A stretch of 64,000 nucleotides of DNA. Source: Sinomicrobium soli. Lineage in GTDB: Bacteria > Bacteroidota > Bacteroidia > Flavobacteriales > Flavobacteriaceae. Shown piece after piece: positions 10,632-32,809 of this stretch. The DNA lies in assembly GCF_003285545.1 (NCBI RefSeq), contig NZ_QLNV01000002.1:248001-312000 (forward strand). Direction: 5' to 3'. The translations under genes were made by a program, and so were the position numbers. The stretch's first letter is position 1, and each line of letters starts with the position of its first letter. Below the pieces are notes generated by a model. It was not told where the DNA came from. It saw only the letters and a program-made list of their open reading frames with translations, and searched no databases.

Positions 10632-10696
10632 ATCTTTGTTATGATTTATGGTTCTGGCCCTAATCCGCATTAAGGCCGGTTGATAAATTACTTTTA

Positions 10697-10738: not shown

Positions 10739-10767
10739 CTCTTTTAGTGAGATTAAAAATGTTAACG

Positions 10768-10788
10768 CCTGTCTGCCGGGCAGGCAGG
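10768..10788. repeat. GC-rich palindrome of CCTGCCTGCCGGCAGGCAGG type
   Basis: A near-perfect 21-nt palindrome with one G-T pair (10768-10777 with 10779-10788). A shorter relative, tgcctg/caggca around ccgga, lies at 11868-11884 on the other side of the FecR gene. Confidence 0.5.
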
Positions 10789-10822
10789 TTTGCATCGATA
10801 TATAGTATGGGTCAGGTTATTC

Positions 10823-11767: not shown

Positions 11768-11898
11768 AAATCAGTTCCTGTTAGAAATATATATCACCTA
11801 AACAGTTGCACAAACTGCAATTATCCCTAAACACCATGACACTTTTTATCAAAGGAATGGAAAAACATGCCTGCCGGACAGGCACGGAGTCTTTTAAC

Positions 11899-11912
11899 CT
11901 CCCTTAAGGGAG
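11899..11912. repeat. 14-bp perfect palindrome in the sigma - FecR spacer
   Basis: ctcccttaagggag is fully self-complementary. It lies 22 bp downstream of the sigma stop on the minus strand. It may be an operator, a processing hairpin or a small intergenic repeat; nothing decides between these. Confidence 0.35.
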
Positions 11913-11934
11913 CAAATGGCAGGAATCATAAGAT

Positions 11935-12465
11935 TTACCGGAAATCTACCAGGTGTAATCTCAAAAACCGGGTTGCCTTGTGCAAGTGATATTCTACAGC
12001 TTTCTCACTGATATCCATCGACTTGGCTATTTCCTTCTGGGGAGCTCCCTGTTCGTATTTGAGATTGTATATCTCCTGGGTTTTCTCAGGCATTCGGGCA
12101 AGGAGCTGTTCTATTTCTTCTGTCAGCTGATCGTAGTGCACTTTTTCCTCCGTATCATTGATATCGGCAGGAACCGTTTCCAGGGCCTTCAGGTGCTCCT
12201 GGTGAAGATATTTATTCCGGAAATATTCATTTACCGCAAGTTTTGCAGCCTTGAAGAGGTATTTTTTTACTTCTCCCATGATTTGCAATGTCCTGCGGCG
12301 TTTCCACAATGACTCAAAAATATTCTGGGTAAGTTCCTGGGCTACGGCCGTATCCCCGGTATAGTGATAACATATACCGAAAACCTGCTTCCAGTAGTTT
12401 TCATACAACTGACTGAAAGACCTGGCTGTTATGGTGAAATAATCCTGTTCTGATCCGGTACTCAC
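11935..12465 (-). CDS. ECF RNA polymerase sigma factor (FecI/SigW-like)
   Basis: A 176-residue group 4 sigma-70 factor. Region 2 occupies about residues 15-80 (QLYENYWKQVFGICYHYTGD and the AQELTQNIFESLWKRR core-binding helix); region 4 occupies about 112-165, with the LKYEQGAPQKEIAKSMDISEKAVEYHL helix-turn-helix. The order sigma - FecR - STN receptor on one strand defines a cell-surface signalling cassette, so it should drive the receptor gene, and possibly its own. A TATATTTG box lies 25 bp upstream of its start. Confidence 0.9.
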   Translation of the reverse strand: MSTGSEQDYFTITARSFSQLYENYWKQVFGICYHYTGDTAVAQELTQNIFESLWKRRRTLQIMGEVKKYLFKAAKLAVNEYFRNKYLHQEHLKALETVPADINDTEEKVHYDQLTEEIEQLLARMPEKTQEIYNLKYEQGAPQKEIAKSMDISEKAVEYHLHKATRFLRLHLVDFR

Positions 12466-17175: not shown

Positions 17176-17240
17176 GCAAGATACTAATTTTAAATACCCA
17201 TATGTTCCCGCATACTTATCAATGATCCCGGTATCTCCTT

Positions 17241-19205
17241 TCAGAAACGGGGAACTTTGCTATCAAACAGCAATCCGTCCGTACTGAGTTTCCGGTCATC
17301 ACTCCGAAAGGGTGCTGCAGGCAAGCCGTTTTCACCGGTAAGATCCAGCGGGCCGGGGTTATCGCTCCAGGCATACCGTACAGCTACCGGATTGCGGAGT
17401 CCGGGGGCATACACCACTACGGTATTTTTACGTAAGAAAGCCCTGGCCCATCGGAATTCCCCATCCTCTCCGGCAAGCTGAAAACCACGTATATACCCGT
17501 ATTTGTCTTTGGTCTTCAGAACAGGCGTGGCCGCGGTAAAACGGACAAGAAGGCTATCTCCTTTCCGTTCCATATCCTTAAATTGGGGGAATTGTGCAGA
17601 ATAGGTTCCGCCGTAGCACAGGTTCATGGCCAATGCCCCGAGACGTTTGCCCACATCCAGCTTATTCCGGGGGTGTATATCTCCGGCCTCCCCGATATCA
17701 ATCGTTACCGCCATAGCCGTATTCGGCAGGTTCAGGGCCATGTCCTGGGCCTCCCGGAGTTCGGCCCAGGCCGATGGCCCGGGCATTTCCGGTTCCTGTC
17801 CGTAATTGGCCAGCTGTACCCATAGAAAGGGAATATCCTTTCCGAAATGATCACGCCAGTCGCGGATAAGGGCCGGAAACAGCTCCCTGTATTCTGCTGC
17901 CCTTGCCGCATTAGACTCTCCCTGGTACCAGATCACTCCTTTTATCTTCAGGGCGGTAAGCGGTGCCACGTTGGCGTTGTACAACACCCCGGGAGAAGAG
18001 AACGGCGTAACATTTACCAGCTCCTGCTCCGGGAATTTCCCGGCATCGATATGCAATCCCTTCCTGTAATGCCACCTGCCCCGCAAAATATCATTCCCCC
18101 AGAAAGCTGGGGTTGTAAACCCACCTGTGCCACCGGTATCAAAAACGCGTACGGTAAGTATATTGCCCTTCTTTTTGAGTATACCGGCAGGTATGGTATA
18201 ATTTCTGTGATTATGCCGGCCAAAAGTCTCTCCGATACGATGTCCGTTTACCCAGGTTATATCATAATCGTCTATCTGTAACAGTTGCAGGGGCAGGGAG
18301 TCTCCTTCAAATCCTTCAGGAAGGTCAAAACTCCTCCGAAACCATACGGCCCCGTCAAAATCTTTCAGGGTTTCCTCTTCTTCCCAGGTATTGCCGGCAA
18401 CTTCCAAAGTGTCCCAGGAAGTGATATCCGTTTCCGGCAGGTACCATTTTCCGGATATTCCCGGACCGGTATAGTAATACTTGCCGTACCAGCTCTTTTT
18501 GTTCTTTTCAAATGCCTTTTTTACATCTGCAAAACTTCCCGTATGTTTCAGTTCTTCCCTGAACTGCGGGAATGCTTCCAGGGCTTCGTTACTCATCCAG
18601 GTCTCTACGGCAGTAGCCCCCAGGTTTACACTGACCAGCCCAATGGGAACTCCGCTTTCCTGCTGAATAAATTTGCCGAAATGATACCCCACGGCAGAAA
18701 ACTCCGCAATCTTGTCCGGCTCCGGAACCATCCAGCCGGAAGCATGTATATCTTCTCCCGGCCTGTAATCCATCTCCGGGATTACCTTTAAAAGCCTTAC
18801 CTGCTGTCCCTGCAGCCATACGGTATCTTCTTCCCGGTAGGGAGTCTGTTTTAACGGCCATTCCATATTGGACTGTCCGCCACAGAGCCATACATCCCCC
18901 ATCAAAACATTATCCAGCTCCACCACCGAGGTCCCGGCACTTATTTTTACAGTATGGGGCCCTCCTGCCGGAAAAGCGGGCAATCGTACTTTCCATATCC
19001 CGTCTTTACCGGTTTTGCCCTGCTGCGAGCTACCGTCCATTTCCACTTTGACCTCCTGTCCGGGGGCACTCCACCCCCACAAGCTTACGGGAGCATCCCG
19101 CTGTAGCACCATGTTATCGGTAAAACAGGCCGGCAAACGGAGTTCCTGGGCATGGGCCATAAAAACAATGCCCAGGACAAACTGCCAAAACAATACAGGT
19201 CTCAT
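17241..19205 (-). CDS. Sialate O-acetylesterase (SGNH/SASA family), last gene of the mannose PUL
   Basis: A 654-residue exported esterase: signal peptide ending near AHAQ (17-20), an N-terminal Ig-like segment, the SGNH block-I motif CGGQSNMEW with catalytic Ser112, an inserted galactose-binding/GH2-lectin-like module (about 255-365, with GAVWFRRSFDLPEGF and DYDITWVNG), and the second half of the esterase with VIWYQGESNA and the C-terminal Asp/His region (DIGEAGDIHPRNK). It removes O-acetyl groups from sialic acids or other glycans. Placed 28 bp after the mannose-6-phosphate isomerase gene, it probably trims acetylated N-glycans. Confidence 0.88.
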   Translation of the reverse strand: MRPVLFWQFVLGIVFMAHAQELRLPACFTDNMVLQRDAPVSLWGWSAPGQEVKVEMDGSSQQGKTGKDGIWKVRLPAFPAGGPHTVKISAGTSVVELDNVLMGDVWLCGGQSNMEWPLKQTPYREEDTVWLQGQQVRLLKVIPEMDYRPGEDIHASGWMVPEPDKIAEFSAVGYHFGKFIQQESGVPIGLVSVNLGATAVETWMSNEALEAFPQFREELKHTGSFADVKKAFEKNKKSWYGKYYYTGPGISGKWYLPETDITSWDTLEVAGNTWEEEETLKDFDGAVWFRRSFDLPEGFEGDSLPLQLLQIDDYDITWVNGHRIGETFGRHNHRNYTIPAGILKKKGNILTVRVFDTGGTGGFTTPAFWGNDILRGRWHYRKGLHIDAGKFPEQELVNVTPFSSPGVLYNANVAPLTALKIKGVIWYQGESNAARAAEYRELFPALIRDWRDHFGKDIPFLWVQLANYGQEPEMPGPSAWAELREAQDMALNLPNTAMAVTIDIGEAGDIHPRNKLDVGKRLGALAMNLCYGGTYSAQFPQFKDMERKGDSLLVRFTAATPVLKTKDKYGYIRGFQLAGEDGEFRWARAFLRKNTVVVYAPGLRNPVAVRYAWSDNPGPLDLTGENGLPAAPFRSDDRKLSTDGLLFDSKVPRF

Positions 19206-19233
19206 TATAGGTCTTTTAAAGTTTGTTTATACA

Positions 19234-20988
19234 TTATTCCCTTACAAATGCTTTCAGGGTAGCACATTCTTTTCCTTCCGACGCTCCGCCCGGACGTATG
19301 GTATAATCGCCCACTTCTGCCGGGATTATAAAAGTTTCCGCATAGTGCACCACAAAAGGTTCGAACCTGCCATCCGGGCTTTCCACGACAGCTTCCCGTC
19401 CTTCCACCAGGTTGATCACATTAACGCTGCCACCGGTATTGTGCGGCACCTTTCCGGTAAACCAGTGCCTCCGTGTTTCGATAAAGTCGGAAACATACAG
19501 CCCGGTTTTTTCCTCTCTCCATCCGTCTCCCCGTGCAATCTCCCCGATCCGGTTGATGAGATGATCCCTGGTCCACTGTTTTCTCCGGTTCCAGTCTATG
19601 ACCTTTTCCCCGTGCGACAAATGTATAGGTCTCGGTTTTCCGTCCAGCCCAAGCCGGCCCCAGTCCCACAACTTGAACGTAAATATATAGGGTGTAGCGC
19701 TGATCTCCAGTACTACACTGTTAGTTCCTGAACAATGCACCGTTCCCGACGGGATCAGGTAGTGATCGTGTTTCTTTACCGGCCATTTATTGATATAGGC
19801 ATCGGCATCAAAATTACCGCCGTTTTCCTGGGCTTCTTTCAGTGCGGTGATCATTTCTTCCGGATCGGTATCGTCCCTGATGCCCAGGTATACTTCGGCA
19901 TCCTCCCCCGTATCGAGGATATAATAACTTTCATCCTGGGTATACGGCATCCCGAACTGCTCTTTGATATATTCCCTGGTGGGATGTACCTGTAAACTGA
20001 GGTTGCCCCCGTCCATCGTGTCCAGAAAGTCAAAACGTATCGGAAACTCCGCTCCGAATTTTTTATAGACCCGTGGTCCGAGCAACGGTTCAGGGCGGGT
20101 AAGCACCAGGTTGATGGAAGGTGTTTCAAAGGTTGTTCCCTCAAAATCAAAAAGAAGGCTGTTCTCTTCCGGAACACAATCGAACCCCCAGGCAAAATTG
20201 ATACGGTTCCTGTCCAGATCGACAACTTCCTTAAGCCACTGCCCCCCCCAGGGCCCGGGATCAAAAAACGGCACTACACGGAAAGGTTGCCTGCCGGCGG
20301 TATCCAGCATATGTTTCATGGCCGCCCCGGAAACCATCCTGGGGTCTGAAGGCCGTACCGTATCGACAAAAAAGTCTACCTGTCCGAACAGCGATACCTT
20401 ATGCCTGTCCAGTACCCGCCAGTCTACAAAAAAAGATTGTTTGACCCGGAGGGCAAATTCCATATCCTTATTAGACACCCCGAGATTACTCACCTCGTGC
20501 CTGCGCATACGGAGCTGCAATTCCCAGCGGGGCATGTCCATATAAACGAGAAGATCACTTTTCTCACAGCAAAACCCGGCCCCCGGCCCCAGAACGATAC
20601 GGAGCTCTTTATCGTGCTCCTCTATGTCTTTCCGCAATTTTTCGCAACGTTCCGGATCGAAAAAATCCCGGAGGTTAAGATCGGTCATATATCCGAAAAC
20701 CCGGTCGTCCGTAACATAGGGATATACCATTTTCCCGATCTCTTCTTCAGGTTTCATCGCATCGGTACTGTCGTATATCCTGCAGGGACCGACGTTTTTT
20801 TCAAGGACCGCCTTTACCGCTGCGGTATCGACGCCCTGGTAGGTCTCGATGACAATCTTTCCGCGATCTCCCGATTTCTCCCTTATGGTCCGGCATACTG
20901 CTTCCCAACCTCGTATACATTCGAATTCACTTCCCCTGACCCTTATTTTCGGGTACTTGTCGTAATTAGATACCATTTTTTCTTTCAT
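19234..20988 (-). CDS. manA: Class I mannose-6-phosphate isomerase with extra N-terminal domain
   Basis: A 584-residue protein. The C-terminal ~350 residues are a type I phosphomannose isomerase; zinc-site motifs are Q333/H335 in LQVHP, E353 in DESYYIL and H418 in GTVHCSGTN. It interconverts mannose-6-phosphate and fructose-6-phosphate. The N-terminal ~230 residues are not part of the classical enzyme; they carry KIVIETYQGVD and alternate strands and helices like a P-loop fold, but lack a Walker A lysine motif. The ATG at 20988 overlaps the ROK kinase gene by 23 bp; an in-frame ATG at 20976 is also possible. In the operon it follows the sugar kinase, giving mannose to Man6P to Fru6P. Confidence 0.85.
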   Translation of the reverse strand: MKEKMVSNYDKYPKIRVRGSEFECIRGWEAVCRTIREKSGDRGKIVIETYQGVDTAAVKAVLEKNVGPCRIYDSTDAMKPEEEIGKMVYPYVTDDRVFGYMTDLNLRDFFDPERCEKLRKDIEEHDKELRIVLGPGAGFCCEKSDLLVYMDMPRWELQLRMRRHEVSNLGVSNKDMEFALRVKQSFFVDWRVLDRHKVSLFGQVDFFVDTVRPSDPRMVSGAAMKHMLDTAGRQPFRVVPFFDPGPWGGQWLKEVVDLDRNRINFAWGFDCVPEENSLLFDFEGTTFETPSINLVLTRPEPLLGPRVYKKFGAEFPIRFDFLDTMDGGNLSLQVHPTREYIKEQFGMPYTQDESYYILDTGEDAEVYLGIRDDTDPEEMITALKEAQENGGNFDADAYINKWPVKKHDHYLIPSGTVHCSGTNSVVLEISATPYIFTFKLWDWGRLGLDGKPRPIHLSHGEKVIDWNRRKQWTRDHLINRIGEIARGDGWREEKTGLYVSDFIETRRHWFTGKVPHNTGGSVNVINLVEGREAVVESPDGRFEPFVVHYAETFIIPAEVGDYTIRPGGASEGKECATLKAFVRE

Positions 20989-21916
20989 TGTTCAAAATAT
21001 AACTTGTTCCTAAAATACCTGCGGTCTCCTTTCTGTCAGCCACCACAACGGGCAGGCTGCCCGGGGGCACCCAACTGTACTTTTCTACTATTTTTTCTAT
21101 CCCGGGGAGTATATCGTCCTTGCTTTTCATAATTCCCCCACCCATGATTATTTTATCCGGGTCATAGGCATGAACGAGGTTTACAACACCTGTGCCCCAT
21201 GCTTTTACACTATTGTCCCTGACTTCAATGGCAAGGCTGTCACCGGCACGTGCACAGCGGAAAACACTTTCATAATCCGGGTTTTTCTCAAAGCCCAGGG
21301 AACTTCCCGCAAGGTCTTTCCTTTTTTCCAGATGATGTTTCAGAGCCCAGGTAGACGCCAGGCTTTCCACACATCCGGTATTGCCGCAATTACACTGCGG
21401 GCCATTGTAATTTATACTCATATGCCCGCCGAGATTCCCGGCAAGAAAATTTTTCCCCCTGAGCAGTTTCCCTTCCATAAGTACTGCTGTTCCCACTCCC
21501 GTGCCCAGGGTAATCATCACGAGGTTGTCGCATCCTTTTCCCGCTCCGTATTGCCATTCCCCCAATAGGGCTGCACGGGCATCGTTCTCCACAGCTACAC
21601 GCAATCCCCAGTTTTGCCGGGCCCATCCCTCAAAATCCGTTTGCGCTGCACCGGGGTATTTCACATAATCCGAAAGCACCCTGTTCTTCCCGGCATCCAC
21701 TATCCCCGGAAAAGCTATGCCTATACCGGTTACCCGATAAGATTTATCCGCACACAGTCCATCTATCATTACCGACATCTCTTTCAGCACATCATCCATA
21801 CCGCGTCCCGATTTTGCTTCGAGAACTCCGGTTTTACGGATATTCCCGTCTTCATCGACCAACCCGGTCTTTATGCGGGTACCTCCCATATCGATACCGA
21901 TATTCACATTTTTCAT
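20966..21916 (-). CDS. ROK family sugar kinase (probable manno/glucokinase)
   Basis: A 316-residue ROK kinase: N-terminal ATP-binding GIDMGGTRIKTGL (7-19), the central ITLGTGVGTAVLMEGKLLRG segment, GNLGGHMSI with the catalytic-region His, and the zinc-binding CNCGNTGCVES cluster. It phosphorylates a hexose at C6. The operon setting between a sugar-porter MFS gene and a phosphomannose isomerase strongly suggests mannose as substrate, though ROK kinases are often relaxed toward glucose, fructose or N-acetylmannosamine. It overlaps the isomerase gene and lies only 3 bp after the transporter gene. Confidence 0.87.
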   Translation of the reverse strand: MKNVNIGIDMGGTRIKTGLVDEDGNIRKTGVLEAKSGRGMDDVLKEMSVMIDGLCADKSYRVTGIGIAFPGIVDAGKNRVLSDYVKYPGAAQTDFEGWARQNWGLRVAVENDARAALLGEWQYGAGKGCDNLVMITLGTGVGTAVLMEGKLLRGKNFLAGNLGGHMSINYNGPQCNCGNTGCVESLASTWALKHHLEKRKDLAGSSLGFEKNPDYESVFRCARAGDSLAIEVRDNSVKAWGTGVVNLVHAYDPDKIIMGGGIMKSKDDILPGIEKIVEKYSWVPPGSLPVVVADRKETAGILGTSYILNNERKNGI

Positions 21917-21919
21917 ATA

Positions 21920-23296
21920 CTACGCCTCATCGGGTTTGATCCAGTCCTTTTCTATCTGTTCCAGGCTTTTCCCCCTGGTTTCGGGGACAAACTTCCAGGT
22001 GAAGAGCAAGAGTATTACCGAGTTGATCATAAATATCCAGAAGGTAAAGGCCCCTCCGAACCCATCCAGCATTACCGGGGTGAGCTGTGTGATAAGAATG
22101 ACCCCTATCCACAGTATAAAGGTGCAGAGCGACATGGCGATCCCCCGGATCCTGGTCGGGAATATCTCCGCGATCATCACCCAGGGAATGGGCCCGAGGG
22201 AAGACGCAAAACACGCTATAAAACCCAGAACGAAAAGAATAAGCCAGGGGCCCTTTGTTATTTCAAAATAAAAGCAGAACCCTATGGCACACAGGCAAAG
22301 TATCATGCCGGACACTCCCCATAACAACAATTTTTTACGCCCCGCCCTGTCGATAAGCCAGAGCGCGACAAAAGTGAATATCGTATTGATAATCCCGATA
22401 AAAATGGTCTGATAGAAAGCCGATTCCACGGCAAAACCTATACTCTTGAAGATCTCCGGGGCAAAGTAGATCACGGCATTGATCCCGGTAATCTGTGAGA
22501 ACAGGGCGAGAACCACCCCGACAACGAGTGCCAGCCGTAAGCCTTTGCCAAAAAGATCATTCCATTTTCCCGACTCCATTTCCAGGGTGCTCCGGATCTC
22601 TTCACTTATAGCCCCGGCCTTGTCCCCGTTTATCCTGTAAAGGATCGCCCCGGCTTTTTTCTCCATTCCTTTTTTCATCAGCCACCTGGGACTTTCCGGT
22701 ACGGTGAACAACAACGCAAAAAAGAGTATGGATGGTATGACCTCGGAACCTATCATATAGCGCCAGCCGTATTCCACGTTCCAGTGATTGCTTCCGGAGA
22801 CAGAGATCAGGTAATTGACGATATAAATGATATTGATACCAAATACGATAGCGAGCTGATATACACTCACCAGGCGCCCCCTGAATGCTGCCGGGGCCAC
22901 TTCCGAGATATATAACGGGGACAACATCGAAGCCGCCCCCACTCCTATTCCTCCCACGAGCCTCGCGATGACAAAGGTGGTCAGGTCTGTTGCCAGGGCA
23001 GAACCGAGTGCGGAGACAAAGAACAGTACCCCGGTGATGATCAGTATCCTTTTTCGTCCGAAACGGTCGCTGGCATATCCCGCAACAGCAGCCCCCAGGA
23101 TACACCCCCAGATGGCACTACTTGCCGCCCAGCCCACAAGTGCGGGGGTGAGGGCGAATTTCTCCTGCAGATAACCGATAGCCCCGGCTATAACCGCCGT
23201 ATCATAGCCAAATAACAAGCCGCCAAGAGCGGCCACTGCGGTGATATGGATAATGTATCCCCTGAACATTCCCCCCCTATTATTCTGATGCTTCAT
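21920..23296 (-). CDS. Sugar porter family MFS transporter
   Basis: A 458-residue twelve-helix transporter of the sugar porter subfamily. Signatures: GYDTAVIAGAI near TM1, DRFGRKR between TM2 and TM3, PESPRWLMKKG before the central loop, GRKKLLLWG and the C-terminal PETRGKSLEQIE. It should carry a free hexose across the inner membrane with protons. Within this operon the expected cargo is mannose released by the GH92 enzyme. It overlaps the upstream lipoprotein gene by 17 bp. Confidence 0.9.
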   Translation of the reverse strand: MKHQNNRGGMFRGYIIHITAVAALGGLLFGYDTAVIAGAIGYLQEKFALTPALVGWAASSAIWGCILGAAVAGYASDRFGRKRILIITGVLFFVSALGSALATDLTTFVIARLVGGIGVGAASMLSPLYISEVAPAAFRGRLVSVYQLAIVFGINIIYIVNYLISVSGSNHWNVEYGWRYMIGSEVIPSILFFALLFTVPESPRWLMKKGMEKKAGAILYRINGDKAGAISEEIRSTLEMESGKWNDLFGKGLRLALVVGVVLALFSQITGINAVIYFAPEIFKSIGFAVESAFYQTIFIGIINTIFTFVALWLIDRAGRKKLLLWGVSGMILCLCAIGFCFYFEITKGPWLILFVLGFIACFASSLGPIPWVMIAEIFPTRIRGIAMSLCTFILWIGVILITQLTPVMLDGFGGAFTFWIFMINSVILLLFTWKFVPETRGKSLEQIEKDWIKPDEA

Positions 23297-24491
23297 CAGC
23301 TGTTTTTTTATGTTCCGACCCGAATTTTATCCGGATGAATCTCGGTCTGTACAAATGAGGCATGTTCTCTATGACATCGAAAAACTTAAAACTGTTTACA
23401 TTATAGCTCACCAGCAGCTCCCCCTCACCGGAAATGGCGGGATGGGCCTTGGCATTATAGGTAAACAGGTCGGGGTCATTGACATCCTCTGTAGTATTCC
23501 ATATTTCCTTTCTGTCCCCGAAAGGCCCATACGGCGTTTCCCCGATCTGCATATATATATTCGGATATATGCCCCCGTACTGGTAGATCAGGGCATAACG
23601 GCCATCGGGCAACCGGGACATACTGAGTTCATTGGACACACTGTCTGTAAGCGCAGTCATTTGCTCCCGGTCTCTGGTCCATCCATCGGCCTTGCGGAAT
23701 TCCCAGGCATCAAAATCTTCTATTTTATCATAGTTCACCCTGGCACAGACCAGCTCCTTATCCTGTCCGCGAACCCCGTATATATACACATGCTCCTCTT
23801 CCCGGTCGTCATGGATACCTACTCCAAAAGAAATTTTGTCCGGGCTCTCCCCGGAACCGAAGAAAGGGATGTGCAGGGTACGGGGCCCGTGAAGGGGAAC
23901 TTTATTTTTATCTATAACCAGGAGATCGTTACCCGTTTCTTCAAAAGGCAGGAGATCATCTGTCCCCGTATTACGTATGCGGTAGGCAAACACGTATAAT
24001 TTCCCTCCCGGTTTACGGTCAGCAAAACCGTCACCCAGCCAGTAATACTCTCCTTGTTCCGTATCCGGCACCAGCATGGCAGCAGCCTTTCCTTCACTAT
24101 CCTCTGCCAGGAAGAACTCCGTTGTTCCGGGCTTTTCTCCCTTTTGATACAGTGCCATCGAATTGTTGACCATACTGTATCCCGGTACCAGGGAATCCCC
24201 GATGATCTCTCCCACCATGGTATCGCTGAACAGGAAGATAATACTGTCTGCTTCCTTCCGGCTGTCCTCGCCCGAATAAGGTATGGCAAAAATGCCATCT
24301 CCCCCGAACCATCCCGAATCTCTCCTGAATACTGCCGTCCATTCCGGGGCACGTTCCACACTAAAGGTCATTTCTTCCGATAGCGGATCTTTTTCCGTAT
24401 TCTTATCGCGTACATCATCCTTGCACGACAGGACAAGGACAGTACACATCGATCCCAGAATGCCTGTATATATACTTTTTCTTAAATTCAT
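23280..24491 (-). CDS. Putative beta-propeller lipoprotein (DUF4185/DUF5005-like)
   Basis: A 403-residue lipoprotein (lipobox ending in VLSC, Cys23). The body contains repeated strands with GWFGGDGIFAIP, IIFLFSDTMVGEI, LHIPFFGSG and NTTEDVNDPDLFTYNAKAHPAISGEGELLVSYNVNS, a layout like five-bladed glycoside-hydrolase propellers (GH43/GH32-like folds) and of the DUF4185/DUF5005 proteins. I cannot assign a catalytic triad with confidence, so it could be an uncharacterized glycosidase or a glycan-binding protein. It lies inside the mannose PUL between the SusE-position lipoprotein and the MFS transporter. Confidence 0.6.
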   Translation of the reverse strand: MNLRKSIYTGILGSMCTVLVLSCKDDVRDKNTEKDPLSEEMTFSVERAPEWTAVFRRDSGWFGGDGIFAIPYSGEDSRKEADSIIFLFSDTMVGEIIGDSLVPGYSMVNNSMALYQKGEKPGTTEFFLAEDSEGKAAAMLVPDTEQGEYYWLGDGFADRKPGGKLYVFAYRIRNTGTDDLLPFEETGNDLLVIDKNKVPLHGPRTLHIPFFGSGESPDKISFGVGIHDDREEEHVYIYGVRGQDKELVCARVNYDKIEDFDAWEFRKADGWTRDREQMTALTDSVSNELSMSRLPDGRYALIYQYGGIYPNIYMQIGETPYGPFGDRKEIWNTTEDVNDPDLFTYNAKAHPAISGEGELLVSYNVNSFKFFDVIENMPHLYRPRFIRIKFGSEHKKTADEASE

Positions 24492-24524
24492 CTCATACTC
24501 TTTTTTAATGGCCGGTTTTTCAGT

Positions 24525-25379
24525 TTAATCATTTCTTTGGGCAGCTTCGAAAACATAGAGAAAAATCTCCTCTTCCCGAAGCCCCAGTTCTGAGAGGTCT
24601 ACCGTGAGCTGCAGTTCCAGCCTGTCTACCGCAAGCGTCTTTATTTCAAACGTATCGGCTACAATAATGCCGGGGGTGAACACATTGTACTTTTCCATGA
24701 CAAACTGCTGTTCGTCTTCGGTAATATGCCAGCCGCTGAAAACATTCAGTCCGTCAAGCGCACATGCTCCGGCCCCTGTGTCTGATCCGTATTCCAGGCT
24801 CATGGTACCATCGGAATTAAAGAGATAGGCATTGTCTTTTTCACAATCCTCTATCGCCTCTGAGTTGGGATCATCTTCATTGTTGACATGCAGGACAGAT
24901 TTCCATTCCCATCTCCTGCGCGGAAGATTGTCCCTGGGGCTCAGGGTTATACCGGCCGTGAGATCACTGGTCTTTTCCTGCCCTCCCAAGGTGATGGCCT
25001 TAAAACTGAACCCTACCAGTTTATCTACATCTTCTACCGTAGGAACATAGACAAAGTCATACCCGAATTCCCTGCCGGACGCAGCTACCTGCAACATTCC
25101 TTCCTGCCCGAATGACGTATCTTTTTGCAGGTTTACCGTTTTGGTTATTTCCAGCTTTTCCAGGTCTTCGGGAGCTTCCACCGATACGGTGAGATAGAGT
25201 GTATCCCCTGATTCCATACGGCTGCGGTACTGGCCGGATCCGGGAATTTTCTCTGCGTCCAGGCCGACGAGGAAATTGCCCTGGTCGTAATAATCTGCAG
25301 GTCCCTGCTCGTCTTCGTTACAAGCTGCCAGTAACCCCAGGACTACGGGAAAGATCAGGTAATATATTCTGGTTTTCAT
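24525..25379 (-). CDS. SusE-position surface lipoprotein (unknown fold)
   Basis: A 284-residue lipoprotein (LLAAC, Cys20) with a sequence that is mostly predicted beta strand. It sits directly after SusD, where PULs usually encode SusE/SusF-like surface glycan-binding lipoproteins. The first ~110 residues resemble an Ig-like or BACON-type domain with acidic EDEQGPADYYDQGNF near the anchor; the second half, with RRRWEWKSVLHV and CEKDNAYLFNSDGT, resembles the lipocalin-like domains found in such proteins. No family is recognised with certainty. A glycan-binding role is inferred from position only. Confidence 0.55.
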   Translation of the reverse strand: MKTRIYYLIFPVVLGLLAACNEDEQGPADYYDQGNFLVGLDAEKIPGSGQYRSRMESGDTLYLTVSVEAPEDLEKLEITKTVNLQKDTSFGQEGMLQVAASGREFGYDFVYVPTVEDVDKLVGFSFKAITLGGQEKTSDLTAGITLSPRDNLPRRRWEWKSVLHVNNEDDPNSEAIEDCEKDNAYLFNSDGTMSLEYGSDTGAGACALDGLNVFSGWHITEDEQQFVMEKYNVFTPGIIVADTFEIKTLAVDRLELQLTVDLSELGLREEEIFLYVFEAAQRND

Positions 25380-25423
25380 ATCGCGTATTTTTGGTTGAAC
25401 AATAAAAAGTGGCCCTATCGGTA

Positions 25424-26890
25424 TCAGAATCCGGTATTTTGCGGTAAATTGGGGTTTACCAGTCTCTCGCGCTGCGGAATGGGAAACAGTTCGTATTGTT
25501 CTGCCACCGAAATTCCCTTTATGGCTTCCACCCGTTGCCTGAGCCTGCCCAGCCTGGTCAGGTCGAACCAGCGCTGACCTTCTCCCACGAATTCCTTACC
25601 CCTTTCTTCCACCAGCAGGTCTATAAAATCTTCCATATTGCCGGCTTCCGCATCTCCCAGGTTTGCCCGTTGTCTTATTTTATTCAGATAATCGTTGGCA
25701 ATATCAAAATTTCCCAGCCTGGCCTGCGCTTCGGCATAGGTAAGCAGCACATCGGCATAACGGATAACCGGAAAATCGTTAAAAGACCCTCCTGCCGTCG
25801 GGTCCGCTTCCGCGTCCCAGTATTTGTCGATATAGACATGGTCCAGGTTTACGGTGGAATTATCGGAAGCGACAAAACTGGTCATAAACGTATCCTCGCG
25901 ACGCTCGTCTGCAGTGGCAAAAGTGCCGTACATATTATCGTTGGCTATCTGCCACCCCTGGGTATTGGATATACCGTCTACCTCAGCACTGAGAGCAGGC
26001 GGCAGTAGTCTTACGTTGAACTGCCCTACTTCCCAGAAGGAAATGGCCCCTCCGGCATCTCCGAATCCGACAGAAAAAACGGCTTCCTTACCGCCACGGT
26101 TCTCGATCCGGAAAGCATCTTTAAAGCGGTCCCAGAGCCCGTACAACTCTGACTCCATAACATCGGAAGCCTTGTCTGAAGCGAGCTCATACGCTCCCGT
26201 GCGCAGATATACCTTGGCCAGCAGAGCCTGTGCAGCTCCCCGTGTAGCCCGTCCTTCCTGTATTTCCCCATCCGGGGGAAGTGCTTCGGCATCGGTAAGG
26301 TCACTGATGATCTGGTCGTAAACTTCTTCCGCAGGGGCAGCCTCCGGATTCAGGGGTGCATCTTCGGTAATCACCAGCGGTATCTGCCCGAACATCCGGA
26401 CCAGGTTAAAGTAAAGCAATCCTCTCAGGAATTTGGCTTCGTTGACATAGCGGTCCCTAAGAGTTTCGTCCATTTCAATAGCCGGAATACGGGCTATGGC
26501 CACATTGGCCAGGTATATGGTCTTGTAATGCACCTCCCATATTTCCTGCAGGGCTACGTTCTCGGCATTATGTGTAAAGGTTCCCAGCTGATCGTACTGC
26601 GGCGTACCCAGCTGGTTGTTGTTCATCTCGTCGGAAGCAAGCCCCTGAGTTACCCAGAACGTACTGTGATACACCCCGGAGGTGTTTCCACGGGAAGCAT
26701 CGTAAGCCCCCAGGTTGGCATAAACGGAGTTTACTGCCGCCAGGGCATCCTGTGCCGTTGTGTAGTAATTGCTGGTGGCCACCTGGTTTTCAGGGTTTTC
26801 TTCCAGAAAGTCACTACAGGAGAACAACAGGAACACACACAGCAAACCGCTGTATGTCTTTATCGGAAAATTATATACTGATTTCATCAT
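25424..26890 (-). CDS. SusD/RagB family outer-membrane glycan-binding lipoprotein
   Basis: A 488-residue SusD homologue: lipobox LLFSC (Cys25), the SDFLEENPENQV opening, the TPR-like helices with the ALAAVNSVYANLG segment, YLNEAKFLRG-type motif (VNEAKFLRGLLYFNLVRMFG) and the C-terminal EERGKEFVGEGQRWFDLTRLGRL and FPIPQRERLVNPNLPQNTGF ends, all typical. It works with the SusC barrel encoded 14 bp upstream, closing over the extracellular side as a lid and binding the incoming oligosaccharide. Confidence 0.95.
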   Translation of the reverse strand: MMKSVYNFPIKTYSGLLCVFLLFSCSDFLEENPENQVATSNYYTTAQDALAAVNSVYANLGAYDASRGNTSGVYHSTFWVTQGLASDEMNNNQLGTPQYDQLGTFTHNAENVALQEIWEVHYKTIYLANVAIARIPAIEMDETLRDRYVNEAKFLRGLLYFNLVRMFGQIPLVITEDAPLNPEAAPAEEVYDQIISDLTDAEALPPDGEIQEGRATRGAAQALLAKVYLRTGAYELASDKASDVMESELYGLWDRFKDAFRIENRGGKEAVFSVGFGDAGGAISFWEVGQFNVRLLPPALSAEVDGISNTQGWQIANDNMYGTFATADERREDTFMTSFVASDNSTVNLDHVYIDKYWDAEADPTAGGSFNDFPVIRYADVLLTYAEAQARLGNFDIANDYLNKIRQRANLGDAEAGNMEDFIDLLVEERGKEFVGEGQRWFDLTRLGRLRQRVEAIKGISVAEQYELFPIPQRERLVNPNLPQNTGF

Positions 26891-26904
26891 GCTGTAGTTT
26901 TGTG

Positions 26905-29900
26905 TTAAAATCCGAGGTTAATTCCAAAAGTGTACATTCTCGTCTGGGGATAATTACCGTCGTCTACACCGACGATATTGGTAGTACCTCCATAAGCATT
27001 GCCTTCGGGATCATAACCACTGTAGCTGGTCCAGGTAAACAAATTGGTGGCACTGGCATAAATACGCAGGTTACTGATCCCGATCCGGTCTGTAAGCTTC
27101 TGAGGAAAATTATATCCCAGTGTCACGTTTTTTACCCTTACATAGGAGGCATCTTCCACAAATGCTGATGAAAAGGTGCTGTTAAAGGAATCATCTGCCG
27201 AAGCCCTGGGATAAATATTTCCAGGATTATCCGGCGTCCACCGGTTCCGGCCTGCCTTTGCCAGTACATTCTGTTGTCCGTTCATGTTTTCGAGGTTAAG
27301 CAGGTTCATATTGGCCAGATCGTTTCCCTGGCTTCCCTGGATAAAGACACTCAGGCTAAAATTATTATAGGAAAACTCGTTGTTTAACCCCCAGGTAAAA
27401 TCGGCTTGAGCAGTCCCGATGACGGTCAGGTCATACTCATCTATAAACCCGTCCGGTGTGCCTTCCGGACCACTTATATCCTTATACCTGCGATCCCCCG
27501 CAACAGGAGTTTGCCCGCGTAGCGCAGGACCTGCCGCTGCGTCCTCATCAGTCTGGTATATTCCGTCAAAAACATAACCTTCAAAGGTGCCTATGGGTTT
27601 TCCTTCTCTCAATATGCTGCCCGCTACCAGGAGGTTGATATCCTCTTCCCTGGCCAGGTTGGTCACCTTATTGCGGTTTACGGAAAAGTTCCCGGAAGCA
27701 TTCCAGGAGAATGGTCCGCTAAAAATATCGGCTCCCATTTCCAGTCCGATCCCCCGGTTCTGTACATTTCCCACATTCAGCAGGGTAGTTTGAAAACCGG
27801 AGGTAAAAGGAATGGGAGTTCCCAACAGGAGATCAGAAGTTTTTTTGTCATATACTTCTGCCGTAAATCGCAGTCTCCCGTTCCAGAAGGCCATATCAAG
27901 CCCCAGGTTGGCCTGCCGGGTAGTCTCCCATTTCAGGTCGCGGTTGGGGTAACTGCTGGGTTCCTGGCCGTAAAACACATCGGGACTTCCCGCTCCGTTG
28001 TTAAACACCCCTTCACCGAATGGAGCCACCAGGGCCAGCGAATTATACGGCCCTATGGACTGGTTTCCTATAACCCCATAGCTCAAGCGCAGTTTCAGAT
28101 CGCTGAAGAGCCGGGAATCCTCCATAAAATCCTCGTTGATCACACGCCATGCAAATGCACCGGAAGGAAAGAAACCGTATTGATTGCCTTTTGCAAACTT
28201 GGAAGAGCCGTCGACCCTGCCGGAAAGGGTGAACAGGTATTTGTCTTTCATCACGTAATTCACCCGGGCGAGATAAGATACCAGTGCCCATCTCGATTCG
28301 CTATTTACCGGCGGTTGCGGGTTCTCCGCCGCCGACAGGTTGTGATATCCCGTCCGCCCGTCGGGAAAACCAAAAGCTATACTGGTAAGGGATTCGTTCT
28401 GAAACTCCTGCAGCGTAAAACCCAGTAATGCCGTTAGATTATCCCCTCCGTCAAAAGTCCGGTTATAGGTCAGTGTGTTTTCATTCAGCCAGGTAAGTGC
28501 ATCAAGTGTGGCAATGGACGCTTCTCCGCGGCTGCTCTCCGTGCGCTTCAGGAAATTAGGCCCGAAAGCACTGTTTTTAGTGTGTAACAGGTCGATCCCG
28601 AAGCTGGTACGAAAATCCAGGTCTCCGGTGAGTGCATATTCGGCAAATACATTTCCGAGAAGCCTCGAAGTAACCGTTCTGGATTCGTATTCCCTGGCCT
28701 CTGCCACCGGATTGGCCACCGCATCCTTACGATCGTGCTCAAAGGTATACCCTCCCGGTTCGCCCGGGTTATACACAGGGAGTACAGGATTGATCTGCAA
28801 TGCATTGGCCACCACTCCCGGGACGATCTGCCCGGGTCCGGTGAGCACCCCGTTGGATATAATTCTCGCGTAGGAAAGATTGTTTCCTATTTTCAGTTTA
28901 TCACTCACGTTGCGTTCGAGATTCACCCGGAAAGAATATCTTCGGAAGTCGGAGCCTGTGACGATACCGTCCTGGGTAAACAATCCGCCGGAAACAGCAT
29001 ACTTTGTCTTCGCATCGCCCCCGGAAAAGGTGAGCTGGTAATCGGAAACCTGTGCAGTCCTGAAAAGCTCATCCTGCCAGTCGGTACCCTTGCCCAACGA
29101 GGAAGGGTTTACGTAAACAGGGTTCCGCCCGGCATTCATTTCTGCTTCATTCACAAGCACTGCATATTCCTGTGCATTGAGAAGGTGTAATTTATTTGCT
29201 ACCTGCTGCACCCCGTGATAGGCATTAAAACTTATAGTCTCTCTTCCTTCCCTTCCCTTTTTCGTGGTGATCAGGACCACTCCGTTGGCTCCCCTGGAGC
29301 CGTAAATAGCAGTTGCGGAAGCATCTTTAAGTATTTCGATGGATTCTATATCATTCGGATTGATAGTCGAAAGCGGGCTTACCCCGGGGCCCCTGCTGCC
29401 GGCAGAGGTTTCACCTGCATCGCTGTTTACAAGCATCCCGTCTATAACATACAGAGGTTCACTACTTGCATTGACCGAGCTCGTACCCCGGATACGTATA
29501 TTGGTCCCGCCGCCGGGTACTCCCGATGCCTGTGTAACCTGCACGCCCGAGGCCCTGCCTTGCAGTGCCTGTTCGAAACTCGAGGCCGGGACTGCCTGTA
29601 GTTCTTCGGCACTCACGGAAGACACCGAGCCGGTAACATCCGATTTCCGCTGGCTGCCGTACCCGATAACGATAACTTCCGAAAGCTTTCCCATATAAGG
29701 TTCCAGCTCCACCTGTATCACAGTCTGTGTTCCCACCTGCACTTCTTTAGGGGTAAACCCGACATAACTGAATACCAGTACCGCATTGCTGTCAGGGACT
29801 TCTATCTCGAAATTCCCGTCAAAATCCGCAATAGTTCCCGTATTCGTCCCCTTTACCACAATGTTACTCCCTGCAAGGACCTCCCCGTCGGCAGACCGGA

Positions 29901-30018
29901 CCGTTCCGGTAATCACGATCTTTTCCTGTTGCGGAAAAGCGTGAAGCTGTACGGACATCCCTAAGCAGGGAAAAGCCAGGTACAGGACAAATGCCCTTAT
30001 TAATTGGTATATTTTCAT
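26905..30018 (-). CDS. SusC/RagA family TonB-linked outer-membrane transporter
   Basis: A 1037-residue SusC homologue: signal peptide (to about 28), carboxypeptidase-regulatory-like domain (about 34-112, VITGTVRSADGEVLAGSNIVVKG), TonB-box region SEVIVIGYGSQRKSDVTG, plug with IRGTSSVNASSEPLYVIDG and IEILKDASATAIYGSRGANG, and a barrel ending NLGF. No STN domain is present, unlike the second SusC in this window, so it is not expected to signal through a FecR. It imports oligosaccharides, probably mannose-containing, together with the SusD lipoprotein. Confidence 0.95.
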   Translation of the reverse strand: MKIYQLIRAFVLYLAFPCLGMSVQLHAFPQQEKIVITGTVRSADGEVLAGSNIVVKGTNTGTIADFDGNFEIEVPDSNAVLVFSYVGFTPKEVQVGTQTVIQVELEPYMGKLSEVIVIGYGSQRKSDVTGSVSSVSAEELQAVPASSFEQALQGRASGVQVTQASGVPGGGTNIRIRGTSSVNASSEPLYVIDGMLVNSDAGETSAGSRGPGVSPLSTINPNDIESIEILKDASATAIYGSRGANGVVLITTKKGREGRETISFNAYHGVQQVANKLHLLNAQEYAVLVNEAEMNAGRNPVYVNPSSLGKGTDWQDELFRTAQVSDYQLTFSGGDAKTKYAVSGGLFTQDGIVTGSDFRRYSFRVNLERNVSDKLKIGNNLSYARIISNGVLTGPGQIVPGVVANALQINPVLPVYNPGEPGGYTFEHDRKDAVANPVAEAREYESRTVTSRLLGNVFAEYALTGDLDFRTSFGIDLLHTKNSAFGPNFLKRTESSRGEASIATLDALTWLNENTLTYNRTFDGGDNLTALLGFTLQEFQNESLTSIAFGFPDGRTGYHNLSAAENPQPPVNSESRWALVSYLARVNYVMKDKYLFTLSGRVDGSSKFAKGNQYGFFPSGAFAWRVINEDFMEDSRLFSDLKLRLSYGVIGNQSIGPYNSLALVAPFGEGVFNNGAGSPDVFYGQEPSSYPNRDLKWETTRQANLGLDMAFWNGRLRFTAEVYDKKTSDLLLGTPIPFTSGFQTTLLNVGNVQNRGIGLEMGADIFSGPFSWNASGNFSVNRNKVTNLAREEDINLLVAGSILREGKPIGTFEGYVFDGIYQTDEDAAAGPALRGQTPVAGDRRYKDISGPEGTPDGFIDEYDLTVIGTAQADFTWGLNNEFSYNNFSLSVFIQGSQGNDLANMNLLNLENMNGQQNVLAKAGRNRWTPDNPGNIYPRASADDSFNSTFSSAFVEDASYVRVKNVTLGYNFPQKLTDRIGISNLRIYASATNLFTWTSYSGYDPEGNAYGGTTNIVGVDDGNYPQTRMYTFGINLGF

Positions 30019-30055
30019 AAGAAACAGATTTTTTGGTTGATACTAATTTCGAATC

Positions 30056-32745
30056 TCAATTCCTGGTTCCCCATTGCATATCAGGTTCAGTACCGAGGTA
30101 GAGTTCGAGGCTTCCCCCCTTTTGGAACACATCGTGAGAAAACCAGAATTTCCGGTATTCCTTACCATTCAGAAGGGCTTTCCGGATGTACATATGATCG
30201 GGGCTGTTATTACGGGTAATGATCTTAAATTCCTTTCCGCTGTAGTATTCCGGATCGAGTTTGATGGTCACTTCGTCAAAAACCGGGCTGGTAATATCAT
30301 ATACCGGGTTTTGGGAAACGTTGCCGTCAAGGCTGAACAATCCTATCGCCATCAGGGCACTGACCCCTCCCATCTGCCCCTGGTCTTCATCGTGTCCTCC
30401 ATAACCCAGATCAGGGGTAGTACCGCCGTATGCCTGTTTCCCGACTTTACGCACCCAATACTGGGTAAGCCAGGGTTTTCCGGCATGATTGAAGACATGA
30501 GCATTGGAACAGCCGGGCTGGTTGGCATAACTCACGTATCCATCGTTATAGGCAAAAACAAAATCGTCGTCTTCTGCCATCTCAAAAGCGTGATTGAGCT
30601 TGTCGCACAATATGTCTTCTCCCCCCATCAGGGAAGCCAGCTTATCAATCTGGTGCGACACCGACCAGGTAGCCTGCCAGGCATTGGCCTCTACCCAGCC
30701 TTCTCCGGAAAGCGGATCATCATGCATGAAATTTCCGTTCCGGTCTTTGGGAAATACCAGGTTCTGCTCCGGGTTAAAAAGCGTTTTCCACCCGCTTGCC
30801 CTTTTGCTGAAAAAGCGGTAATCCCGGTTCTTTCCCATTGCTTTTGCCATCTGTGACAGGGCGTAATCCTGAAAGGCCGCTTCAAGGGTGATCCCTGCAT
30901 TCCCGGGCCAGTACCCGTTATCGGTATAAAACCGGATATCGTCGGCATCTCCGAGCATACCGCCCGGCAACAGGTTTTTTTTCAACACCTTATAAGCGGT
31001 ATCCCTGTCTGTTTTGGTGAGCAGTCCTTTCTGGAAAGCGGAAACTACCAGGTTAGTCGCCGGAGATCCTGTCATGATATAGGAGTAACCACCACCGGAA
31101 GGGCCGCGGGGTAAAAGCCCCCCGTTGACAGCGTATTGTACCATAGAGGCAGACATCTCGTCCATAACTTCCGGCCATGCAAGCCCCCACAACACATTCA
31201 GGTTCCACTGCGTAAGCCACCAGGCATCTGAGTTATACATATTGAATTTCAGGGTACCGTTTTTATCTTTAGGCAAGGTCCCTATCTTAAAATCGGCATC
31301 CGTAAAAGTACCCTCGCGGGTTCCGGAAGTACGATCGGGATAATCCCCGGAAACATCATTGATTTTCTGCCTTCCGAGAAGCACATGCCACAGATCGGTA
31401 TAGAATTTCACTTTCTGTTCCCGGCTTCCCCCTTTTACCTCTATTTTTCCCAGCCAGTCGTTCCATACACTTACCGATTCGCGATGCACCCTGTCGAAAT
31501 CCCAGTGCGGGCATTCCTTATTCAGGTTATTTCTCGCATTTTCCACACTGGTATAGGAAATGGCTATTTTCATCTGTAATGCATCTCCCGGAAGAACATC
31601 ATAGATTGCCGTGACCCCGGTGCTGTCCCCTTCGATCTCCGGAATGTCCCGGAAGCGCTCTTTACCGGTCCACCCGTCCAGCCTCTTGAACGGCCGGTCA
31701 AATTCCGCAGAAAAAAAGACCTTCACATCTTTCGGCCCGCCCCAAAAACGTTCCGTGGTACTGAAATACCCTTCGATTGCCCGGTCTCCCTTCCGTTCCA
31801 CATATGCGTTTTCCATCCGTACATTACTGACATATCCGCCAAGATTGGCCAGCACCTGGGCTTCCATATTCCGGGAGAAGGTAAAACGGTAAAAGCTCAC
31901 CCTTTCCGTAGCAGTGAATTCAGTCCGGATATGATGATCCTTCAGGTAGACCCTTTGATAACCGGGCTGTACTATTTCATCTTCATGGCTAAAAGCCGAT
32001 TTCCATCCCTCCTGCCCCTGTGTAGGGTCTATGACTGCCGGCGCCGGCATGATCTCCAGGCCACCCAGCATCCAGCTGTGAATTTGCTCAAACCCGAGAA
32101 TATGTCCGTCATTGTAGTTATAGCCCCCTCCGTTCTGGTTCTTGTTCCGGGTAAGAGGAGCGCCCCCACCATTCCGAATGGCCTGGACCCCGTGATAAAA
32201 AACAGATAACGCCCCCGGTTAGTCTCGATATAAGGATCTACCCATAAAACAGGCTCCTCTTTGTCTTCGGGAGCCGCAAATACCTCCATTTCAGATAATC
32301 CCAGGTCCCTGCCGTTACCATCGGTGACCTGAAATTTCACCCATTCCACTGTTTTCGTATCAAACCTGATCTCCTTACCTTCCCCGTTGTCCGGTATACG
32401 GTTTACCCATACCAGGCTTCCGTCACTGAAGATGAGCTTCCCCCCGGCGGTGAATTCTTTTCCGGAGGGACGGTCGTATAAAACGATACGATTGATTTTC
32501 CGGGGCATGTCCCAGCGGAGTTCTATCCAGGGAAAACGAATGTACCCCCAATCCGTAGTCACCCCTTCACAGGCCCATTCCCCCTTTCCGGAAATCCCGA
32601 TAACACCGTCCGCGATATTGTCAGGGGAAAATGCTTCGGACAAAACGGTAGATGCTGATATTTTTGCCTCGCCGGCTATGTTTCCCGTCTGCCCGCTCAT
32701 AGTATAAACCAGGCAGAAAAAAACAACAGTGCTCCAGAATTTCAT
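30056..32745 (-). pseudogene. GH92 family alpha-mannosidase with N-terminal discoidin-like domain, apparent frameshift
   Basis: Two overlapping ORFs together encode one ~900-residue protein. The first (32745 down to 32029) gives a signal peptide, an F5/8 type C-like domain (about 30-165) and the start of GH92 (VDPYIETNRGRYLFF). The second (ending at 30056) begins with MLGGLEIMP but its frame continues upstream as PLTRNKNQNGGGYNYNDG and GHILGFEQIHSW, the expected next part. The frames join if one G is added to the five-G run at 32163-32167. The rest is normal, including GWVEANAWQATW and GGHDEDQGQMGGVSALM. GH92 enzymes remove alpha-mannose exo-wise, calcium-dependently. A sequencing error in the homopolymer is as likely as a real lesion; the intact remainder argues for recent change. 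Confidence 0.85.
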
Positions 32746-32776
32746 ATTATACCTTATTGACATGGGTTTATTTTAA

Positions 32777-32798
32777 AATGTTCATACATATGAACATT
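32777..32798. promoter_or_regulatory. Operator-like inverted repeat at the head of the mannose PUL
   Basis: aatgttcat (32777-32785) and atgaacatt (32790-32798) are perfect 9-bp arms around a 4-nt spacer. The site lies just downstream of a TAnnTTTG box and 32-53 bp upstream of the GH92 start, where a repressor would block initiation. No regulator gene lies in or next to the operon, so the cognate protein is unknown. Confidence 0.6.
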
Positions 32799-32801
32799 AT
32801 A

Positions 32802-32809
32802 CAAATGTA
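32802..32809 (-). promoter_or_regulatory. -7 promoter element (TACATTTG) of the mannose PUL operon
   Basis: An exact match to TAnnTTTG on the minus strand, immediately upstream of the inverted repeat. The upstream sequence is AT-rich but has no TTG at the normal -33 spacing. Confidence 0.5.

Follow-up and report, generated by a model that had tools for sequence, protein, structure and literature searches.

A probable ManR-type alpha-mannoside operon of Sinomicrobium soli with a deleted GntR gene and a retained candidate operator

A 64,000-nucleotide stretch of the genome of Sinomicrobium soli (the window; genome of 4.61 Mb in 43 contigs, completeness 99.7%) carries an operon of nine genes on its minus strand. 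With a probability of about 70%, we read it as an alpha-mannoside polysaccharide utilization locus (PUL) of the ManR type that belongs to Sinomicrobium species and works as proposed below. In three congeners the operon is followed by a gene for a GntR-family regulator; in this strain that gene has been deleted, and a perfect palindrome, the predicted operator, remains upstream of the first gene. The gene content, conservation, frameshift, deletion, palindrome and catalytic residues described here were all read from the sequence.

Ten open reading frames (ORFs) span positions 17241–32763 of the window and correspond to nine genes, the alpha-mannosidase of glycoside hydrolase (GH) family 92 counting as two ORFs. 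From 32763 downwards, the genes encode the GH92 alpha-mannosidase, SusC, SusD, lipoproteins of 284 and 403 residues, a hexose transporter of the major facilitator superfamily (MFS), a ROK kinase, a long phosphomannose isomerase (PMI) and an esterase of carbohydrate esterase family 20 (CE20). According to the ORF coordinates, neighboring genes are separated by 37 bp (GH92–SusC), 14 bp (SusC–SusD), 44 bp (SusD–lipoprotein, the widest gap in the run), 33 bp (between the lipoproteins), 3 bp (MFS–ROK) and 28 bp (PMI–esterase), and they overlap by 17 bp (lipoprotein and MFS) and 23 bp (ROK and PMI). These coordinates, together with Pfam and NCBIfam assignments, bear out the original prediction of nine genes on one strand in this order, with gaps of at most 44 bp and several overlaps. 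The SusC/RagA TonB-dependent outer-membrane transporter (26905–30018, minus strand; TIGR04056, 938.3 bits against a cut-off of 368.25) and the SusD-like lipoprotein (25424–26890, minus strand; PF07980, 117.6 bits; PF14322, 88.5 bits) form an adjacent pair to which carbohydrate-active enzymes are linked, as in a PUL. The hexose MFS transporter (21920–23296, minus strand) belongs to the sugar porter family (TIGR00879, 411.8 bits against a cut-off of 237.8). The operon thereby joins genes for uptake and for the conversion of mannose to fructose-6-phosphate with an alpha-mannosidase and SusC/SusD, which is the content of a ManR-type system.

All nine genes are found in the same order in the three congeners examined for it, G003, G004 and G005, which is more than chance would give. 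Pairwise dN/dS values against two congeners lie between 0.03 and 0.11 in every gene, with dS above 1 and near saturation. The downstream TauE gene and Cys/Met pyridoxal-phosphate (PLP) gene and the upstream SpoU gene are common to the window and G004, and SpoU is also common to G005. Horizontal gain was considered and left no sign in G+C content (0.47–0.52 over 16–34 kb; 0.45–0.52 in the window). No match to the 284- or 403-residue lipoprotein was found in G001 and G002, two of the five congeners, so the operon is variable within the genus.

The conversion of mannose would be carried out by two overlapping genes. The first encodes a ROK sugar kinase (20966–21916, minus strand; PF00480, 196.1 bits), proposed to be a mannokinase, in which NLGGH stands in place of ExGH, the sugar-binding motif of ROK kinases. 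The same place was inspected in 80 named long-PMI loci, which are the best of 580 and lean to the PMI clade of the window; their ORFs were labelled by a greedy script that misses some genes (no PMI ORF in 2 of the 80 loci; the SusD of G005 was recovered by tblastn). None of the 40 ROK ORFs recovered from these loci, in 58 of which tblastn sees ROK-like matches, has ExGH; a residue other than Glu, with one extra residue, occupies that place. Thirteen further kinases nearer to the fused type described below also lack it, and the three solved ROK kinases compared carry E at this position. The ROK proteins without ExGH mark a separate clade, which fits a changed sugar specificity.

The second gene encodes a class I PMI of 584 residues with an extra N-terminal domain of about residues 1–228 (19234–20988, minus strand). 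No Pfam family scored above its cut-off for this protein, and TIGR00218 reached 24.3 bits against an equivalog cut-off of 116.2. An AlphaFold2 model (predicted local distance difference test score, pLDDT, 91.3) was built from alignment A3, which holds 41 of the 80 loci and the window. In a fold comparison covering residues 227–584, residues 233–582 of the model matched 1qwr_B with a Z score of 32.1 and a root-mean-square deviation of 2.6 over 308 aligned positions. H335, E353 and H418, which we take to be the metal-binding His/Glu/His, align with the H, E and H of 1qwr and are invariant in 42 rows. The original assignment as a PMI was right, though not obvious: the profile scores lie below their cut-offs, and the modelled fold is that of solved PMIs. 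The N-terminal domain (window 20305–20988, minus strand, residues 1–228) has no Pfam match; Y50, G52, D151, R154, W155, Q158 and R160 within it are invariant among 42 sequences.

A long PMI (at least 368 bits) was found in 13 of 149 genomes, that of the window included, and 75 further genomes gave only shorter, weaker matches, as for an ordinary PMI. A GH92 gene lies near the long PMI in 10 of the 13, with none in the stretch read of G006, G054 and G090. Among the 80 loci, GH92 occurs in 26 and GH38 in 18, so that 38 have either or both. The ROK gene lies directly upstream of PMI in 36 of the 78 loci in which a PMI ORF was found, and the two are fused into one ORF in G029 (895 residues) and G026 (897 residues). 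This context supports well the earlier proposal that mannose is the metabolite and that the route leads from glycan to fructose-6-phosphate. The product released is probably mannose, which ROK and PMI would pass on to fructose-6-phosphate.

Next to the end of the operon, 3' of the esterase gene and on the same strand, a gene for a 248-residue protein is present in G003, G004 and G005. Pfam assigns the G003 protein to GntR-UTRA, and the G004 protein shares 94%, the G005 protein 90% identity with it. Only 65 bp (17176–17240) separate the esterase gene of the window from the convergent TauE gene, and alignment of this scar with G004 showed that gntR is gone and that part of its upstream sequence remains. 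A linked GntR-family regulator is therefore found in all three congeners with the PUL and has been deleted from the window. The original prediction had stated that there was no linked regulator, which is true for this strain but misses the GntR gene at that place in three congeners. The only other GntR match in the genome of the window is a paralogue of 52% identity on contig C39, adjoining another GH92 gene. At that locus (L051, 6766–10977), the paralogue is followed by a GH92 of 1069 residues, which a palindrome with three mismatches precedes by about 80 bp; in G002 (L045) a long PMI comes after GntR, but it is absent from L051.

A perfect 22-bp palindrome, AATGTTCATA-TG-TATGAACATT, lies at 32777–32798, upstream of the GH92 gene, and is the predicted operator of the missing GntR protein. 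Allowing up to three mismatches, its core has one match in the window against 0.05 expected; with up to two mismatches, there is one site in the whole genome of this strain. At the latter threshold, a search of 31 genomes gave a single site for G004, a single site for G005 and two sites for G003, and the reversed control pattern gave no match in the 31 genomes. Each of these three congeners has a site no more than about 50 bp away from the operon's GH92 ORF, and the second site of G003 precedes, by about 57 bp, an ORF reading in frame into a GH92 match. In G016 a site precedes PMI and GH92 by about 65 bp, and one in G013 (two mismatches), which has no recognised link to GH92 or PMI, may be due to chance. 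With up to three mismatches, the palindrome was found in 20 of the 80 long-PMI loci; up to 200 scrambled versions of it were found in 0.99 loci on average and in 7 at most. It is present in 16 of the 34 loci with a GntR ORF (36 loci when counted by tblastn) versus 4 of the 46 without one, and 26 of the 28 sites in the 80 loci stand at most 400 bp in front of an ORF. Near-copies of the palindrome thus recur upstream of GntR-linked loci across the Bacteroidota.

The promoter motif of Bacteroidota at position −7 is TAnnTTTG, and a box of this kind, TACATTTG, lies just upstream of the palindrome (32802–32809, minus strand) and is kept in all four Sinomicrobium sequences compared. Given its position, transcription would begin within or close to the palindrome, as expected where a repressor binds. 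From these sequence patterns, we infer that GntR would bind the palindrome and repress the operon.

The alpha-mannosidase gene is the first of the operon, and its family assignment in the original prediction was correct; as an intact single gene, it does not stand, since it is present here as two overlapping ORFs in different frames. The first ORF (32029–32763, minus strand, with the start codon at 32763 or possibly 32745) encodes a signal peptide, a DUF7402/F5_F8 galactose-binding-like domain (PF24135, 88.5 bits) and the start of the GH92 N-domain. The second (30056–32071, minus strand) encodes the rest of the N-domain and the whole catalytic domain (PF07971, 402.7 bits). Both GH92 domains are therefore present, with the N-domain (PF17678, 124.6 bits) divided between the ORFs, so that its match in the second begins at model position 64. 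GH92 is a single ORF in G003 (901 residues), G004 (902 residues) and G005 (899 residues), and DNA alignment with the congeners showed that the window is one base short near 32165, adjoining a run of five G. A programmed frameshift was considered and was not adopted because the three congeners carry a single frame. Both halves have low pairwise dN/dS values against G003 and G004 (0.035–0.091, with dS of 1.3–2.5, near saturation), which points either to a recent lesion or to an error of sequencing.

Two lipoproteins follow SusD. The 284-residue lipoprotein (24525–25379, minus strand) matched no Pfam family at E≤0.001; its position after SusD and its LAAC-NEDEQ lipobox suggest a surface glycan-binding protein, and homologues were found in 14 of the 80 long-PMI loci. 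The 403-residue lipoprotein (23280–24491, minus strand) is a DUF5005/DUF4185-like beta-propeller and, on the basis of profile, model and alignment, a predicted retaining glycoside hydrolase with D65, D90 and E288. It scored 31.3 bits with DUF5005, above the cut-off of 29.6, and 35.3 bits with DUF4185, below the cut-off of 39.5; for this reason we name it GH183-like rather than GH183. Its structure model (pLDDT 86.2) was built from alignment A2, which consists of 22 of the 31 DUF5005-like ORFs from named loci and the window. The nearest structure found by Foldseek was 4hbs (BACOVA_04882, a putative hydrolase; E 3.4e-19), followed among endo-D-arabinanases by EndoMA1 (E 7.1e-14) and AraH2 (E 5.4e-7); many GH43, GH62 and sialidase propellers come after these at weaker scores. 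Because so many propellers match, the fold alone cannot name the substrate.

The catalytic residues of EndoMA1 are given as D33, D51 and E243 (PMC10509167). In A2, D65 and D90 are present in all 23 rows and E288 in 19, the other four rows having SEQFS. HMMER aligned E288 with the E243 column, and D65 and D90 were matched to D33 and D51 by motif and by the 18-residue spacing of members without an insert, not by a printed alignment. By this combination of model and residues, the 403-residue lipoprotein is probably an enzyme. The claim of the original prediction that the operon has no endo-enzyme is accordingly doubtful: it contains no known endo-mannanase, but this lipoprotein is GH183-like and carries the catalytic residues. 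D-arabinan, the substrate of GH183 in the strict sense, was not adopted because the operon has no gene of a D-arabinose pathway and the DUF4185 cut-off was not reached. In a search that scored at most 12 first-look candidates per genome, so that weaker matches may be missed, the protein had eight matches (E≤1e-20) in 6 of the 149 genomes. All six genomes have a long PMI, and each of the eight matches has a GH92 gene no more than about 20 kb away; GH92 is present in 70 of the 149 genomes. Both lipoproteins continue their lipobox with acidic residues (CKDD in the 403-residue and CNEDE in the 284-residue protein), resembling the acidic surface-export signals described for Bacteroidota (PMC5080379), and by this analogy they would be located at the surface. 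A bolder proposal, which we hold to be rather doubtful, is that the 403-residue protein represents an uncharacterised family of beta-propeller enzymes, retaining glycosidases with a relationship to GH183. The targets of such a family at the cell surface would be polysaccharides capped with mannose, such as O-acetylated mannans of fungi or the mannose-capped arabinans of soil Actinomycetota. The protein would then open the attack in a type of mannoside PUL that is spread through the Bacteroidota, controlled by GntR and equipped with a dedicated ROK–PMI mannose pathway, and that is run here without its repressor.

In the proposed working of the operon, we infer the substrates, the localisation, the pairing of regulator and operator, the repression and the ligand. 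SusC/SusD and the 284-residue lipoprotein would capture the glycan at the cell surface; the GH183-like lipoprotein would cut or trim it, and the CE20 esterase would take off acetyl groups. GH92 would free terminal alpha-mannose, the MFS transporter would bring it through the inner membrane, and ROK and the long PMI would convert it to mannose-6-phosphate and then to fructose-6-phosphate. In the congeners, the GntR-UTRA protein encoded at the end of the operon would sit on the palindrome over the transcription start and repress until mannose or a mannose phosphate appears. Since the regulator has been lost in this strain, the operon should be constitutive here or under a GntR paralogue.

Other explanations differ mainly in the substrate, and the esterase (17241–19205, minus strand; SASA domain in Pfam) bears on one of them. 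According to the original prediction, this enzyme was a sialate O-acetylesterase that pointed to acetylated N-glycans. Its end-to-end matches are to 9h4u (480.3 bits), 9ega (442 bits) and 7kmm (377 bits), and the solved sialic acid acetylesterases 8f9o–8f9r reach at most 131 bits (8f9r, 130.9). It has the GQSNM serine (Ser112), the DIH residues Asp509 and His511, and a beta-galactosidase-type domain inserted at residues 253–358, as in CE20 enzymes with an ancillary domain; the presence of this domain, and nearest structures that are not sialic acid acetylesterases (SIAEs), do not fit the eukaryotic SIAE type. We take 7kmm to be XacXaeA, which is tied to xyloglucan and, in our understanding, undeserving of the sialate esterase name. 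The structure 9h4u is taken to be Fl8CE20_II, an enzyme described as induced on xylan (PMC12313940). The "sialate" name is thus not upheld; the enzyme likely removes O-acetyl groups, and sialic acid is not specially indicated. We consider it quite improbable that the operon is an N-glycan PUL in which GH92 trims the high-mannose glycans of glycoproteins and the SASA-domain enzyme de-O-acetylates sialylated chains. GH92-rich PULs have been discussed as possibly targeting N-glycans (PMC6298971), 9ega and 7kmm, out of the three solved structures closest to the esterase, bear sialate or sialic-acid esterase names, and the genome holds a separate sialic-acid-like cluster. This cluster (L156, contig C39, 258001–273000) encodes a NanM-like epimerase fused to a sodium symporter, two sialidase-like and two DHDPS-family proteins, a GntR/FCD protein and a sulfatase. 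Against these points stand the type and nearest relatives of the esterase, the presence of a CE20 gene in just 9 of the 80 long-PMI loci, where it is accessory, and an operon without a sialidase or NanA gene (none of five NanA matches in the genome passed the cut-off). With the CE20 matches and the sialic-acid-like cluster lying apart from the operon, the acetylated N-glycan substrate is unsupported and was not adopted.

Within the alpha-mannoside interpretation, a possible choice of substrate, to which we give somewhat less than an even chance, is an alpha-mannan from algae or fungi that carries O-acetyl or sulfate groups, for example one with an alpha-1,3-mannan backbone whose side groups the GH183-like protein would cut. 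The GH92 of G029 (L043), 59% identical, sits with a sulfatase, an AXE1 acetylesterase and the ROK–PMI fusion, and a PUL with GH92 for a C6-sulfated alpha-1,3-mannan of diatoms is known from marine Bacteroidota (PMC13063451); the operon of the window, on the other hand, has no sulfatase, and no GH76 or GH99 family match was found among its proteins. It is also conceivable that the PUL is decaying in this strain, the deletion of the regulator and the frameshift in GH92 being a loss of function, as both lesions are present in the sequence and G001 and G002 have neither lipoprotein. We regard decay as unlikely, given the low dN/dS values in all genes, though these are blind to a recent relaxation in this lineage, and given that the loss of one base at a run of G may be a sequencing error.

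Several observations weigh against the alpha-mannoside interpretation itself. As sequenced, the GH92 frame is broken, which may mean that the central enzyme is inactive in this strain or that the sequence contains an error. The mannose preference of ROK is a proposal made from sequence context. Neither GH92 nor GH38 was found in the stretch fetched of 42 of the 80 long-PMI loci (25 of these 42 stretches end early), and the long PMI may therefore not be bound to alpha-mannosides alone. A GPI-type cupin gene occurs in 18 of the 80 loci, none of which has GH92, so that the long PMI may come in two functional classes; such loci include L073, L076, L097, L107 and L110, and some hold GH38 or GH2. 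The palindrome, even with three mismatches, is missing from 18 of the 34 GntR loci. In the region, 19 promoter-like patterns (19.5 expected) and 25 terminator-like patterns (19.8 expected) were found, and these near-chance counts neither prove nor exclude a single transcript. The flanks of the operon differ in G003, in whose stretch TauE, the Cys/Met PLP gene and SpoU were not found. Against our reading of the esterase in particular, the PDB names of 9ega and 7kmm are those of sialate or sialic-acid esterases, taken here as annotation names.

The surroundings add some further observations. On the same contig, at about 325–350 kb and about 45–70 kb from the operon, GH92, GH125 and GH76 genes lie with two SusC/D pairs, which makes the cooperation with another locus suggested in the original prediction plausible. 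Within the window, an ECF sigma factor (11935–12465), a FecR anti-sigma factor (10823–11767) and a TonB-dependent receptor (7899–10670) form a separate transport system under sigma/anti-sigma control (7899–12465, minus strand). Related GH92 loci contain FG-GAP/UnbV proteins of about 1150 residues (L043, 9821–13285, minus strand; L068, 15493–18915, plus strand), and a Pfam scan of the partner proteins of 431 and 776 residues in related loci gave no match.

For a type of mannoside locus that extends from Sinomicrobium to Chryseobacterium and Dyadobacter, this analysis yields a predicted operator, the regulator found in congeners, a signature for the kinase and a possible new glycosidase. The strain, which has lost the regulator and kept the operator, offers a ready natural comparison on whether GntR represses. 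The esterase calls for caution, as the label "sialate O-acetylesterase" is not evidence for sialic acid. In the literature searches made, we found no report of the GH183-like partner, of the palindrome, of the ROK signature and its fusion to PMI, or of the loss of the regulator from a strain, although the palindrome may match the published ManR logo.

The main idea is already known from the predicted regulon of ManR (BT2103, GntR family) of Bacteroides thetaiotaomicron, whose operon BT2107-13 is described as a complete pathway from alpha-mannosides to central metabolism (PMC3878776). That regulon links a GntR-family regulator, mannose uptake, the route to fructose-6-phosphate, SusC/SusD and alpha-mannosidases (extracellular oligo-alpha-mannosidases in the ManR case), and the Sinomicrobium operon shares these features, the regulator being present in the congeners. 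By gene content and description, rather than by regulator orthology or motif comparison, it would be the closest known system. Unlike the ManR regulon as described there, the Sinomicrobium genes form one run, the GH183-like lipoprotein and the CE20 esterase are added, and the regulator is deleted in this strain. The GH92-rich mannose PULs of North Sea Flavobacteriia and the diatom-mannan PUL of Polaribacter resemble the operon in being Bacteroidota systems with SusC/SusD, GH92 and mannose as the product; those described (PMC6298971, PMC13063451) have several GH92 enzymes with sulfatases, or GH76, GH125 or GH38, whereas the Sinomicrobium operon has one GH92, no sulfatase, no known endo-mannanase, and a kinase and isomerase of its own. 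The esterase is like 9h4u and 7kmm in its full-length match, inserted domain, GQSNM serine and DxH; the CE20 enzyme taken to be 9h4u is tied to xylan and to no GH92 operon (PMC12313940), whereas the Sinomicrobium esterase sits in one. The 403-residue lipoprotein, finally, has the beta-propeller, the Asp pair and the aligned Glu of the GH183 (DUF4185) endo-D-arabinanases EndoMA1 and AraH2 (PMC10509167, PMC10115798), but differs from them in its identity of about 15%, its score below the DUF4185 cut-off and its nearest solved structure, 4hbs.

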